Shown here: piece by piece, positions 28,523 through 33,336 of the stretch
Position numbering within the stretch: position 1 is the first letter of the stretch
Layout of the letters: each line of letters starts with the position of its first letter
Assembly (NCBI RefSeq): GCF_011044975.1
Contig: NZ_JAAKZV010000066.1
Span: 1 to 34,539 of the forward strand
Source: Streptomyces coryli
Lineage (GTDB): Bacteria; Actinomycetota; Actinomycetes; Streptomycetales; Streptomycetaceae
Direction of reading: 5' to 3'
Length of the DNA stretch: 34,539 nt
Notes under the pieces: generated by a model
The model's database searches: none
What the model saw: only the letters and a program-made list of their open reading frames with translations
What the model was told of the DNA's origin: nothing
Translations under genes and position numbers: made by a program

Positions 28523-28699
28523 TCGGCGGCCGCCGAGGGCCCTCCGCGCTGCGGAACGTGCGCCCCACCCGCTGATGGACCCGTAGGTCCGCACTCCCTG
28601 AGCTTTGCCCTTCCCATGCCTCGCTTCGCGCTGCACGCGAACGGGGATGCGGCGCGCCCCTGCGCGTTCCGCGCCACCTCTCCAGGAGACGGAAGTCCT
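28523..28699 (+). promoter_or_regulatory. Leader region with competing hairpins before metN (attenuator candidate)
   Basis: Behind the leader peptide follow TCGGCGGCCGCCGA (28523-28536, palindrome), GAGGGCCCTC (28535-28544), TCCGC-GCT-GCGGA (28543-28555), GGACC-CGTA-GGTCC (28577-28590) and GGCGCG-N13-CGCGCC (28651-28675). GCGGAACG (28551-28558) can pair over distance with CGTTCCGC (28665-28672), which would break the last hairpin. No SAM-riboswitch core is visible. A GTG start and AGGAGA follow. The stretch 28355-28699 holds no other gene. Confidence 0.5.
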
Positions 28700-29752
28700 G
28701 TGATCACCACCAAGGGCCTGACAAAGGTCTACCGAACCCGAGACCGCGAGGTCACCGCCCTGGACGGCGTCGATCTGCACGTGCGGGAGGGGGAGGTGCA
28801 CGGCGTCGTCGGACAGAGCGGCGCCGGCAAGTCCACCCTCATCCGCGCCGTGAACCTGCTGGAGGTCCCCACCTCCGGCACCGTCACCGTCGACGGCACC
28901 GACCTCACCGCACTCGCCGGCAACGGCAAGCGCGCCGGCGCCGAGCTGCGCAAGGCCCGCGCCCGCATCGGGATGGTCTTCCAGCACTTCAACCTGCTGT
29001 CCGCCCGTACCGTCCAGGACAACGTCGAGCTGCCGCTCGAGATCCTCGGCCACTCCGGCGCCGAGCGCTCCCGCAAGGCCCTGGAGCTGCTCGACCTGGT
29101 CGGCCTGGCCGACAAGGCCAAGGCCTACCCGGCCCAGCTCTCCGGCGGCCAGAAGCAGCGCGTCGGCATCGCCCGCGCCCTGGCCGGCGACCCGAAGGTG
29201 CTGCTCTCCGACGAGGCCACCTCGGCGCTCGACCCCGAGACCACCCGCTCGATCCTGCAGCTGCTCCGCGACCTCAACCGCGACCTGGGCCTGACCGTGC
29301 TGCTCATCACGCACGAGATGGACGTCGTCAAGGCCGTCTGCGACTCGGCCTCGCTGATGAAGAACGGCAAGATCACCGAGTCCGGTGCCCTGTCCGACCT
29401 CCTCGCCACCCCCGGCTCCGAGATCGCCGCCGAGCTCTTCCCGCTCACCGGCGACCCGCTGGGCGCCCCCGACCGCACGGTCGTCGACATCACCTTCCTC
29501 GGCGAGAACACCGGCCAGCCGGTCATCTCGCACCTGGCCCGTACGTACAACATCGACGTCTCGATCCTCGGCGCGGCGATGGACACCGTCGGCGGCAAGC
29601 AGGTCGGCCGGATGCGGATCGAGCTGCCGGGTCCGTACGAGGAGAACGTCGTGCCGATTGGCTTTCTGCGTGAGCAGGGGCTGCAGATCGAGATCGTCGG
29701 CGCCGCCGACGCCGTCAAGGACACCCAGCTGGTCGCGGGAGTTGCACAGTGA
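28700..29752 (+). CDS. metN: Methionine ABC importer, ATP-binding protein
   Basis: A 350-residue ABC ATPase that powers methionine uptake. Walker A is GQSGAGKST (about 39-47), the Q-loop lies in IGMVFQHFNLL, the signature is LSGGQKQRVGIARAL, and Walker B is KVLLSDEATSALD; the switch histidine is in LLITHEMD. From about residue 270 there is the C-terminal NIL domain (VVDITFLGENTGQPVISHLA), which in MetN binds methionine and inhibits transport. The GTG at 28700 is chosen by homology and AGGAGA 10 nt upstream; the in-frame ATG at 28616 would extend into the hairpin region. Its stop overlaps the fused permease gene (GTGA). Confidence 0.95.
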   Translation: MITTKGLTKVYRTRDREVTALDGVDLHVREGEVHGVVGQSGAGKSTLIRAVNLLEVPTSGTVTVDGTDLTALAGNGKRAGAELRKARARIGMVFQHFNLLSARTVQDNVELPLEILGHSGAERSRKALELLDLVGLADKAKAYPAQLSGGQKQRVGIARALAGDPKVLLSDEATSALDPETTRSILQLLRDLNRDLGLTVLLITHEMDVVKAVCDSASLMKNGKITESGALSDLLATPGSEIAAELFPLTGDPLGAPDRTVVDITFLGENTGQPVISHLARTYNIDVSILGAAMDTVGGKQVGRMRIELPGPYEENVVPIGFLREQGLQIEIVGAADAVKDTQLVAGVAQ

Positions 29753-31269
29753 ACTGGTCAGAGATACGCCCCGAGCTCCTCACCGGCCTGTACGAGACCG
29801 TCGCCATGGTCGGCTGGGCGTCGCTGATCGCCGTCATCGGCGGTGTCCCGCTCGGCGTCCTGCTGGTCCTCACCGACCGCGGCCGCCCGCTGCAGAACGC
29901 CCTGATCAACAAGGTCATCGGCTTCGTCGTGAACGTCGGCCGGTCGCTGCCCTTCATCATCCTGATGCTGGCGCTCACCGCCTTCACCCGCGCCCTGACC
30001 GGCACCTCCATCGGCCTGACCGGCGCCATCGTGCCGCTTGCCATCAGCGCCATCCCGTTCTTCGCGCGGCTGGTCGAGACCGCGGTGCGCGAGGTCGACG
30101 GCGGGCTCGTCGAGGCCGTGCAGGCCATGGGCGGCTCCACCCGCACCGTCGTCTTCAAGGCGCTGCTGCCGCAGGCGCTGCCGTCGCTGGTCGCGGGCCT
30201 GACCACCACCGTCGTCGCGCTGATCGGCTACTCGGCGATGGCCGGCGCGGTCGGCGGCGGCGGCCTCGGCGACGTCGCCATCCGGTACGGCTACCAGCGC
30301 TACGAGGGCGGCGTCATGCTCGCGACCGTCGTGCTGCTGGTCGTGCTCGTCAACGTCGTCCAGCTGATCGGCGACTTCTTCGTCCGTACGCTCTCCGACC
30401 GCACCACCCGCTCCGCCGCGTGGCTGCGGGCCCCGCGCCGGACCCGTACCACGGTCACCGCCGTGGCGTCGGTCGGCCTGGTCGGCGCGCTCACCGCGGG
30501 CACCCTCGGGCTCACCTCCGAGGGCGACGCCGGCTCGGACGAGACCATTACGGTCGCGGCCACGCCGACCCCGCACGGCGACATCGTGAAGTTCGTCGCG
30601 GACAACCTGGCGAAGGACGCGGGGCTGAAGGTCGAGGTGAAGGAGTTCACCGACTACGTCAAGCCCAACGAGGCGCTCGCCAACGGCGATGTGGACGCGA
30701 ACTTCTTCCAGCACGTGCCGTTCCTCGACGACTTCAACAAGAAGAAGCACACGGACCTGGTCCCGACCGTCGGCATCCTGGTCGAGCCGATCGGCATCTA
30801 CTCCAAGTCCGTGGACGACGTCAGCGCCCTCGGCAGCGGCGACACCATCGCGTTGCCGAACGACACCACCAATGAGGGCCGCGCCCTGCATCTCCTGGAC
30901 GACCAGGGCCTGATCAAGCTCAAGAAGGGCACCGGGCTCGACGCCTCGTTGAACGACATCGCGGACGACGGCGGCCTGACCCTGAAGCCGCTGGAGGCAG
31001 CGCAGACCCCGCGCGCCCTCGAGGACGTGGACGCCGCCATCGTCAACGGCAACTACGCCATCGGCGCGGGCCTCACCCCCAAGAAGGACGCCCTGGTGCT
31101 GGAGAAGGCCAAGGGCAATCCGTACATCAACATCCTCGCGGTCAAGAAGGAGGACCGCGACGACCCGGCCATCAAGAAGCTGGGACAGCTGCTGAACTCG
31201 GACGCGACGAAGAAGTTCATGGAGAAGAAGTTCCCGTCGTCGATTCCCGTCTTCGGCCCGGTGAAGTAA
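29749..31269 (+). CDS. metI-metQ: Fused methionine permease and substrate-binding protein (MetI-MetQ)
   Basis: A single 506-residue protein. Residues 1-215 are a MetI-type permease with five helices (from MVGWASLIAVIGGVPLGVLL on) and the EAA loop EAVQAMGGSTRTVVFKALLP (122-141), which contacts MetN. A basic linker (RSAAWLRAPRRTRTT, 221-235) leads to a hydrophobic helix (about 236-255). Residues 262-506 are a NlpA/MetQ binding protein: ETITVAATPTPHGDIVKFVA, NGDVDANFFQHVPFLDDFN, ending FPSSIPVFGPVK. The helix resembles a lipoprotein signal peptide, but the lipobox cysteine is missing (TLGLTSEGD) and no start codon with ribosome binding site precedes it. The six-helix topology would put MetQ outside. 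It starts in the metN stop codon. Confidence 0.9.
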   Translation: MNWSEIRPELLTGLYETVAMVGWASLIAVIGGVPLGVLLVLTDRGRPLQNALINKVIGFVVNVGRSLPFIILMLALTAFTRALTGTSIGLTGAIVPLAISAIPFFARLVETAVREVDGGLVEAVQAMGGSTRTVVFKALLPQALPSLVAGLTTTVVALIGYSAMAGAVGGGGLGDVAIRYGYQRYEGGVMLATVVLLVVLVNVVQLIGDFFVRTLSDRTTRSAAWLRAPRRTRTTVTAVASVGLVGALTAGTLGLTSEGDAGSDETITVAATPTPHGDIVKFVADNLAKDAGLKVEVKEFTDYVKPNEALANGDVDANFFQHVPFLDDFNKKKHTDLVPTVGILVEPIGIYSKSVDDVSALGSGDTIALPNDTTNEGRALHLLDDQGLIKLKKGTGLDASLNDIADDGGLTLKPLEAAQTPRALEDVDAAIVNGNYAIGAGLTPKKDALVLEKAKGNPYINILAVKKEDRDDPAIKKLGQLLNSDATKKFMEKKFPSSIPVFGPVK

Positions 31270-32109: not shown

Positions 32110-33336
32110 ATGGCCGACCGGGTCACGGTGATCGGCTGGGACGGCACGCCGCTCACCGCGGCGGCCCGCTCGGCCCTCGGCGCCGCGACGCTCGTCGCCG
32201 GCGCCGGACACCACCTCGAGCTCCCCGAGGTCCCGGCCCGCGCGGAGCGGATCCGGCTCGGCAGCGTGGCTCTCGCGGCGCGGCGGATCGCCCGGCACCG
32301 CGGCACGGCGGTGGTGCTCGCGGACGGCGACCCCGGCTTCTTCGGCGTCGTACGGGCGCTGCGCGCACCTGAGCACGGCCTGGAGGTGGAGGCGATCCCG
32401 GCGGTGTCATCGGTGGCCACGGCCTTCGCGCGGGCCGGGATGCCCTGGGACGACGCCCAGGTGGTGGTGGCCCACGGCCGCAACCTCCGCCGCGCTGTGA
32501 ATGTCTGCCGCGCCTTTACGAAGGTCGCCGTGCTGACGTCCCCGGGCGCGGGCCCGGCCGAACTCGCCCTGCTGCTGGACGGCGTCCACCGCACCTTCGT
32601 CATCTGCGAGGAGCTCGGCACGGAGCGCGAGGAGGTCTCCGTACTGACCTCCGACAAGGTCCACGGCCACACCTGGCGCGACCCGAACGTCGTCCTGGTC
32701 ATCGGCGGCCGCGGCGGCGAGACGGCGGCGTCGTCGAGCGGCTGGCTGCTGGGCCGGGAGCCCGACTATCCGGCGGCGGCGGTACGGGGCTGGGGCCTGC
32801 CCACGCCCGAGTACGGCGCCGGCACCGACGCGGGCTCCTCCGCACAGCTGCGCGCCGCCCAACTCGCCCGGCTCGGACCCCGGGTGGGCGACCTGGTGTG
32901 GGACATCGGCACCGGCAGCGGTGCGCTGGCGGTGGAGGCCGCGCGCTTCGGCGCCGCCGTGCTGGCCGTCGACTCGGACGCCGACGCCTGCGCCCGTACC
33001 ACCGCGACGGCCCGCCGCTTCGGGGTGCAGCTGCAGGTCGTGCACGGCACCGCGCCGCAGGTCCTCGAGGACCTGCCGCAGCCCGACGTGGTGCGCGTCG
33101 GCACCGGCGGCGTACCGGTGGTGGCGGCGTGCGCGGCGCGCCGTCCCGAGCGCATCACGGCGCACGCCGGGACCCGGGACGAGGCCGAGGCGATCGGCCG
33201 GGAACTGGCCGAGGCGGGCTACGAAGTGGAGTGCTCGCTGCTGCAGTCCGTCGAACTCAACACCTCCGCCACGTCCGTATGGACGGAGCGCGAACGCGTG
33301 GTCGTCTTCCTGCTGGCCGCTTCGCGCCGCGCCTGA
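32110..33336 (+). CDS. cobL: Precorrin-6B C5,15-methyltransferase (decarboxylating), CbiE-CbiT fusion
   Basis: A 408-residue bifunctional enzyme of the cobalamin pathway. It methylates C5 and C15 and removes the C12 acetate. The N-terminal CbiE half (1-200) is a tetrapyrrole methylase: VTVIGWDGTPLTAAARSALG, VVLADGDPGFFGVV and EAIPAVSSVATAFARAGMPW. The C-terminal CbiT half (from about 215) is a class I methyltransferase with the SAM loop LVWDIGTGSGALAVEAARFG, an acidic VDSDADA at strand 2 and PDVVRVGTGG. No other cob gene is in the window, apart from a possible one at the end. The ribosome binding site is weak (GAGAGAG) and no cobalamin riboswitch is seen. Confidence 0.95.
   Translation: MADRVTVIGWDGTPLTAAARSALGAATLVAGAGHHLELPEVPARAERIRLGSVALAARRIARHRGTAVVLADGDPGFFGVVRALRAPEHGLEVEAIPAVSSVATAFARAGMPWDDAQVVVAHGRNLRRAVNVCRAFTKVAVLTSPGAGPAELALLLDGVHRTFVICEELGTEREEVSVLTSDKVHGHTWRDPNVVLVIGGRGGETAASSSGWLLGREPDYPAAAVRGWGLPTPEYGAGTDAGSSAQLRAAQLARLGPRVGDLVWDIGTGSGALAVEAARFGAAVLAVDSDADACARTTATARRFGVQLQVVHGTAPQVLEDLPQPDVVRVGTGGVPVVAACAARRPERITAHAGTRDEAEAIGRELAEAGYEVECSLLQSVELNTSATSVWTERERVVVFLLAASRRA

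Follow-up and report, generated by a model that had tools for sequence, protein, structure and literature searches.

We analysed a stretch of 34,539 nucleotides from Streptomyces coryli (hereafter the window), in which a metN gene is followed on the forward strand by a single open frame of 506 residues (29749-31269; Table 1), whose translation meets its first stop at 31267-31269. The preliminary description of this DNA had stated that MetI and MetQ are joined here in one frame, and our data confirm this: the MetI permease comes first in the frame, the MetQ/NlpA binding domain last, and the linker between the two holds an additional hydrophobic helix. In Pfam, BPD_transp_1 covers residues 48-215 above its curated cut-off, and Lipoprotein_9 (NlpA/MetQ family, PF03180) covers residues 267-495 with 289.9 bits (cut-off 27); PF03180 is the only binding domain detected in the fusion, and no domain of the glycine-betaine type was found by Pfam. 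The best NCBIfam models were PRK10782 MetI for the permease half (199 bits, below its cut-off of 212) and MetQ for the binding half (177 bits, below its cut-off of 374). Among solved structures, the MetI chain of 3dhw matches the permease half (E 1.7e-51) and chains of the MetQ family match the C-terminal half. The metN product carries PF00005 (ABC_tran) and PF09383 (NIL) above cut-off, with TIGR02314 as its best NCBIfam model (365 bits, below its cut-off of 499.7); since this last match starts at residue 30, the true start of metN probably lies further in. The GTG start of the fusion overlaps the metN stop by 4 bases. Rfam reported no family at gathering score in the window (1-34539), and thus no SAM riboswitch was detected before metN. 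Taking these data together with those that follow, we consider it very probable that the MetI permease and the MetQ binder are made here as a single chain, a subunit of a methionine importer, the former signal peptide having become a sixth helix.

Table 1. Coordinates of the metN-metI-metQ features in the window.
Feature	Position	Strand	Basis
metN, ATP-binding subunit (ABC_tran and NIL)	28616..29752	+	Pfam, NCBIfam
metI-metQ fusion gene, 506 aa, GTG start	29749..31269	+	translation, Pfam
MetI permease domain with its five hydrophobic segments, from residue 1 to about 214	29749..30390	+	Pfam, NCBIfam, hydropathy
Basic stretch ahead of helix 6, residues about 215-235, expected to be cytoplasmic	30391..30453	+	charge count; side from the positive-inside rule
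Helix 6, residues 236-254 (alternatively centred on 238-256), putatively derived from the MetQ signal peptide; no lipobox	30454..30510	+	hydropathy; separate-gene relatives
GTG of residue 239, sole in-frame start codon near the old metQ start	30463..30465	+	codon scan; no Shine-Dalgarno before it
Short linker from helix 6 to the MetQ domain, residues about 255-266	30511..30546	+	linker alignment, charge and linker count
MetQ (NlpA family) putative methionine-binding domain, residues 267-506, with stop	30547..31269	+	Pfam, NCBIfam, structure matches

Six segments of 19 residues exceed the hydropathy threshold in the window's fusion protein (24-42, 56-74, 88-106, 147-165, 189-207 and 236-254), the last of them being the extra helix that the preliminary description had pointed out. 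On reading the full sequence we found no cysteine in any of the 506 residues, so that the lipobox is truly absent, as had been claimed from the loss of its cysteine. It had also been claimed that metQ lacks a start codon with a ribosome site, which agrees with our codon scan: the GTG of residue 239 (position 30463) is the only in-frame ATG, GTG or TTG within residues 206-265, and the 20 bases preceding it (CCCGTACCACGGTCACCGCC) hold no Shine-Dalgarno sequence, the best match being 3 bases. In each of the 21 fused copies that were compared, the window's among them, six hydrophobic segments are seen, the linker lacks cysteine and no in-frame linker start is preceded by a Shine-Dalgarno match of more than 3 nt, whereas all 82 separate-gene loci have a lipobox (by a loose pattern) and a Shine-Dalgarno match of at least 4 nt, a comparison in which a slightly longer stretch was scanned at the separate loci, some of the 82 may be one genome counted twice (the known duplicates L082, L083, L086, L088 and L099 were removed), and the outgroup loci L076-L078, L151 and later loci are left out. 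The join is not a plain read-through: the absent lipobox and the absent ribosome site go together without exception. In the 21 fused copies the net charge is +4 to +7 in the stretch of up to 25 residues before helix 6 and -4 to +1 after it, in keeping with the positive charge that had been read ahead of this helix, and the outer linker that follows measures 10-16 residues (14 in the window).

These traits bear on whether MetQ would in fact stay on the chain. Translation might begin anew inside the frame, for instance at GTG 239, and yield some or most of the MetQ; that codon is indeed present and in frame. We regard this as very improbable given the lack of a Shine-Dalgarno sequence before that codon and the clean division between fused and separate loci in this respect; as read from the sequence, the putative product would moreover have neither the positively charged N-region nor the lipobox. 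A single precursor might instead be cut after helix 6, leaving MetQ free or loosely held. Helix 6 sits at the position of the relatives' MetQ signal peptide, and signal peptidases are able to act on internal signals; however, none of the 21 fused copies shows an A-x-A motif of signal peptidase I between the midpoint of helix 6 and the eighth residue of the linker, none has a linker cysteine either, and a cut, unlipidated MetQ would be expected to escape from a Gram-positive cell into the medium. We therefore rate cleavage as improbable, and favour a chain that stays whole.

The preliminary description had proposed a search of related genomes for the fusion, and a scan of genome contigs found it well beyond the window: among the best 80 of 246 related stretches, 16 are fused and 64 have separate genes, the in-frame layout of most of the latter in this first scan probably being partly an artefact of match joining. 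The fused loci comprise the S. aculeolatus group (L001-L003; 76-77% identity to the window) and 13 loci at 59-62% identity, namely the S. albus/cacaoi/qinglanensis group together with Streptomyces sp. AJS327. Because relatives carry the same fusion, it is not a sequencing error; nothing was found to support a stop or frameshift lost through misassembly or misreading in one genome, and with the linker open in both groups the probability of such an error is negligible. A stop-free, full-length match occurred, among the matches listed, in at least 8 of 295 genomes of the genus, at least 3 of 150 of the family and at least 2 of 246 Actinomycetota, both of these in the known groups (149 of the 246 had any match). 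In Pseudomonadota every full-length match listed held an in-frame stop (299 genomes, 112 with any match). Many matches in these last two surveys were other permeases, and the stop-free, full-length criterion would miss fusions with very different linkers; Bacillota lay outside the sample.

Further loci were inspected one by one. Four in which the permease and binder matches shared an open-frame length (L141-L144) have separate genes, as do S. oceani (L145), L146 (genome G110), four plasmid matches (L147-L150), ten further relatives (L161-L170) and S. violaceoruber (L038). In the plasmid collection 508 records match and 298 cover at least 80% of the query; the four plasmid loci just named, all separate, were inspected from among the best 60. 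Within L151-L160, nine loci are separate and the tenth, L151 (G857:C5:999000-1004500), chosen for its stop-free full-length match, is a further MetI-MetQ fusion from the Kitasatospora side, of 527 aa and with a linker sequence of its own, whose MetI and MetQ parts are 63% and 48% identical to those of the window. It follows the plan of the other fusions, with a hydrophobic segment at 252-270 and no cysteine, although its third MetI helix does not reach the hydropathy threshold. An AAGG in its linker is followed at once by one in-frame GTG and after 15 nt by another, and may provide a weak internal start in this copy, which lies outside the 21.

Several separate-gene loci show features of their own. 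In S. oceani (L062, L145) the metI stop and the metQ GTG start are separated by 21 bases, in frame, with GAGAAGGAGG (Shine-Dalgarno) between them; this arrangement looks like the state just before a fusion, or like a later split. The locus of Streptomyces sp. MNU76 (L064) has a KLTTA unit repeated four times in tandem within the MetQ signal peptide. Two metQ-like matches or genes, one after the other downstream of metI, were seen at G090:C1:7738404-7740082, at G108:C4:82809-84490 and in L150 (D. wulumuqiensis plasmid pDrdA).

The linker bears the marks of coding sequence. Its third codon positions vary about twice as much as the first and second in the window's group (0.224 versus 0.126 and 0.112, 7 copies) and likewise in the albus group (0.380 versus 0.181 and 0.147, 14 copies), whereas the gap between metI and metQ in separate-gene relatives, picked by hand as an intergenic control, showed no excess at the third position (0.086/0.174/0.158, n=7; 0.047/0.140/0.113, n=8). 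Insertions and deletions in the linker preserve the frame among the fused copies, and the linker sequences differ much between the fused groups. The linker thus looks translated in frame, and the fusion is more than chance because it is found elsewhere at 59-77% identity with frame-keeping indels and an excess of change at third positions. An AlphaFold model of the fusion is good in the MetQ half only (pLDDT below 50 for residues 20-263, mean 58.2, pTM 0.46), and is silent on topology owing to its low confidence over the permease half and helix 6.

The fused and separate loci share a setting. Upstream lies metN in 16/16 fused and 63/64 separate loci; downstream a GNAT gene was found in 16/16 and 61/64, and a tetrapyrrole methylase gene in 15/16 and 61/64, respectively. 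All three genes are also present at L151. In the window the last of these neighbours (32110-33336) encodes one protein in which weak methyltransferase matches (PrmA, Methyltransf_25) come after a tetrapyrrole methylase domain, and adjoins the operon as in other Streptomyces. The genomes of all 21 fused relatives counted (16 plus 5, the window's own genome being outside this count) contain one PF03180 domain only, the fused one, and hence no spare free MetQ was found in them; each of the 8 separate-gene genomes likewise has one match. Judged by this gene content, the function must rest with the fused gene in the relatives. The lipoprotein-lipidating enzyme Lgt was present in 11 of 12 fused genomes, the one miss being G002, whose metI-metQ contig has only 3,389 bases, so that lipidation as such has not been lost.

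We then asked of the trees how many times the fusion arose. The 70-row trees were built after removal by hand of 36 near-duplicate separate-gene rows from 106, and a further 29 were removed for the 41-row tree. The careful MetI+MetQ tree (70 rows) and the careful MetN+MetI+MetQ tree (41 rows) each needed two changes within Streptomyces, and the careful operon tree that takes in L151 and ten relatives (52 rows) needed three; a single fused clade appeared in 0% of 200 bootstrap trees in every case. In the 52-row tree L151 stands apart on starred branches among the separate genes of the Kitasatospora side, though it is a long row. The tree of the two downstream flanking genes also calls for three changes, all forced by starred branches. 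For rpoB, in which the window is represented by its group and not by its own gene, the AU test rejected one fused clade with 28 rows (p 0.011) and with 39 rows (p 2e-6 for all fused, 7e-6 for the two Streptomyces groups). The third change in the 28-row rpoB tree comes from S. oceani, with its separate genes, beside AJS327 on a weak branch (83/61), and in the 39-row tree S. oceani is placed near or within the albus group at a position that is not firm.

An alternative is that a single Streptomyces fusion spread by lateral transfer, or that the two groups are sisters, which would make the repeated origin an illusion. A quick MetN+MetI+MetQ tree (70 rows) disagrees with the careful ones and groups the 21 Streptomyces fusions together as a single clade (SH-aLRT 85), and the AU test leaves one Streptomyces clade standing for MetI+MetQ (p 0.2), for MetN+MetI+MetQ (p 0.097) and for the flanking genes with the two Streptomyces groups as one clade (p 0.075). 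Against it speak the careful trees with their bootstraps, the rejections by rpoB, the isolated place of L151 despite its long row, the likeness of the flanking genes in fused and separate loci, and the much differing linkers of the groups. We hold a single origin to be unlikely, a live alternative being that the operon, once fused, passed laterally from one of the two Streptomyces groups to the other. On balance we favour the view that the genes fused independently two or three times, always at the native locus, and the sequences point to at least two origins and probably three. The fuller proposition, to which we lean, is that in the Streptomycetaceae a lipid-anchored MetQ became a helix-tethered domain three separate times at its native locus, each time losing the lipobox and start signals, by a convergent route from a MetNIQ to an OpuA-like design that would show the lipid to be chiefly a tether.

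The closest known systems are the MetNIQ importers of the MUT family (3dhw, 6cvl, 7mbz), the first two of which we take to be E. coli entries and the third Neisseria. All three of their parts belong to the same sequence families as the products of the window operon, whose gene order metN-metI-metQ is shared with separate-gene Streptomyces. In contrast to the window, MetI and MetQ of these importers are separate chains, with MetQ a lipoprotein or secreted, whereas here there is one chain and a membrane helix would replace the lipid. Separate-gene Streptomyces such as S. violaceoruber have the same locus and neighbours as the fused loci, but keep the metI stop and the metQ Shine-Dalgarno sequence, start codon and lipobox, which the fused loci do not.

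The preliminary description had likened the fusion to OpuA and GlnPQ. The comparison with OpuA of Lactococcus lactis (7ahc, 7ahd, 7ahe, 7ahh) is apt: in both, the binding domain lies in the same chain as the permease, and in OpuA a membrane anchoring helix and a linker of 11 residues connect it to the permease (PMC11065425), close to the 10-16 residues of the fused copies. Hydropathy, charge and linker length of the window's fusion fit such an anchoring helix and outer linker, in a region where the model has low confidence. Unlike the fusion, OpuA has a glycine betaine binder and a scaffold domain, and its match to the window is weak and confined to the permease (E 2.3e-10, residues 11-215); no sign of a shared origin of the two fusions was seen. 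The likeness to GlnPQ holds in part. The binding-domain and permease families of GlnPQ differ from MetQ and MetI, which makes it an analogy only, and GlnPQ has two tandem binding domains, unlike the fusion; what stands is that its binding domains are covalently linked to the transmembrane domain (PMC8025302). The sequence, then, places the protein in a MetNIQ importer, its architecture is like that of OpuA, and it is not a lipoprotein.

We propose that metI and metQ were separate neighbours in the ancestor, that the metI stop was lost and the metQ start and ribosome site decayed, in whichever order, and that the signal peptide of the MetQ lipoprotein, by then inside the chain and lacking a lipobox, would have become the sixth membrane helix. 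In MetNI structures MetI has five helices, with its C-terminus inside, and forms a dimer. With five helices ending inside, helix 6 would carry MetQ to the outside, where a linker of the length given above would hold it. The importer formed together with MetN would be MetN2-(MetI-Q)2 and have two binding domains for methionine, both tethered, a stoichiometry suggested by the MetI dimer. The fused design would keep the anchor and add a covalent bond, so that MetQ could not leave and each transporter should own two MetQ domains. We infer this topology, an intact, uncleaved protein and the transport of methionine, the putative substrate by family membership. By analogy, the fusion most likely works like OpuA, with an anchor helix, a short linker and a tethered binding domain, built here from MetNIQ parts.

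Several well-known importers have their binding domains built in, and to these this locus would add the NlpA/MetQ class. In our literature search, which had subscription papers and annotated protein databases outside its scope, a MetI-MetQ fusion was not described among the matches listed. Beyond what the preliminary description held, our data show the fusion to be common to many Streptomyces, where it probably arose more than once. This offers a natural experiment on an open point, namely why MetQ is lipidated and needs its lipid to work well with MetNI. For Neisseria MetNI it is reported that lipidated MetQ stimulates the ATPase to the full, that MetQ retaining its signal peptide uncleaved does so in part, and that the secreted form does so barely at all (PMC8416018), and a 2025 E. 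coli study recounts earlier work in which lipidation enhanced the interaction through the bilayer (PMC12357092). Here both the lipid and the freely moving partner appear to have been lost in evolution, with a tether alone retained. Separate-gene relatives, among them S. oceani with its short in-frame gap, give before-and-after pairs for building and comparison. If the fusion transports, the main job of the MetQ lipid would be to hold MetQ at the membrane.
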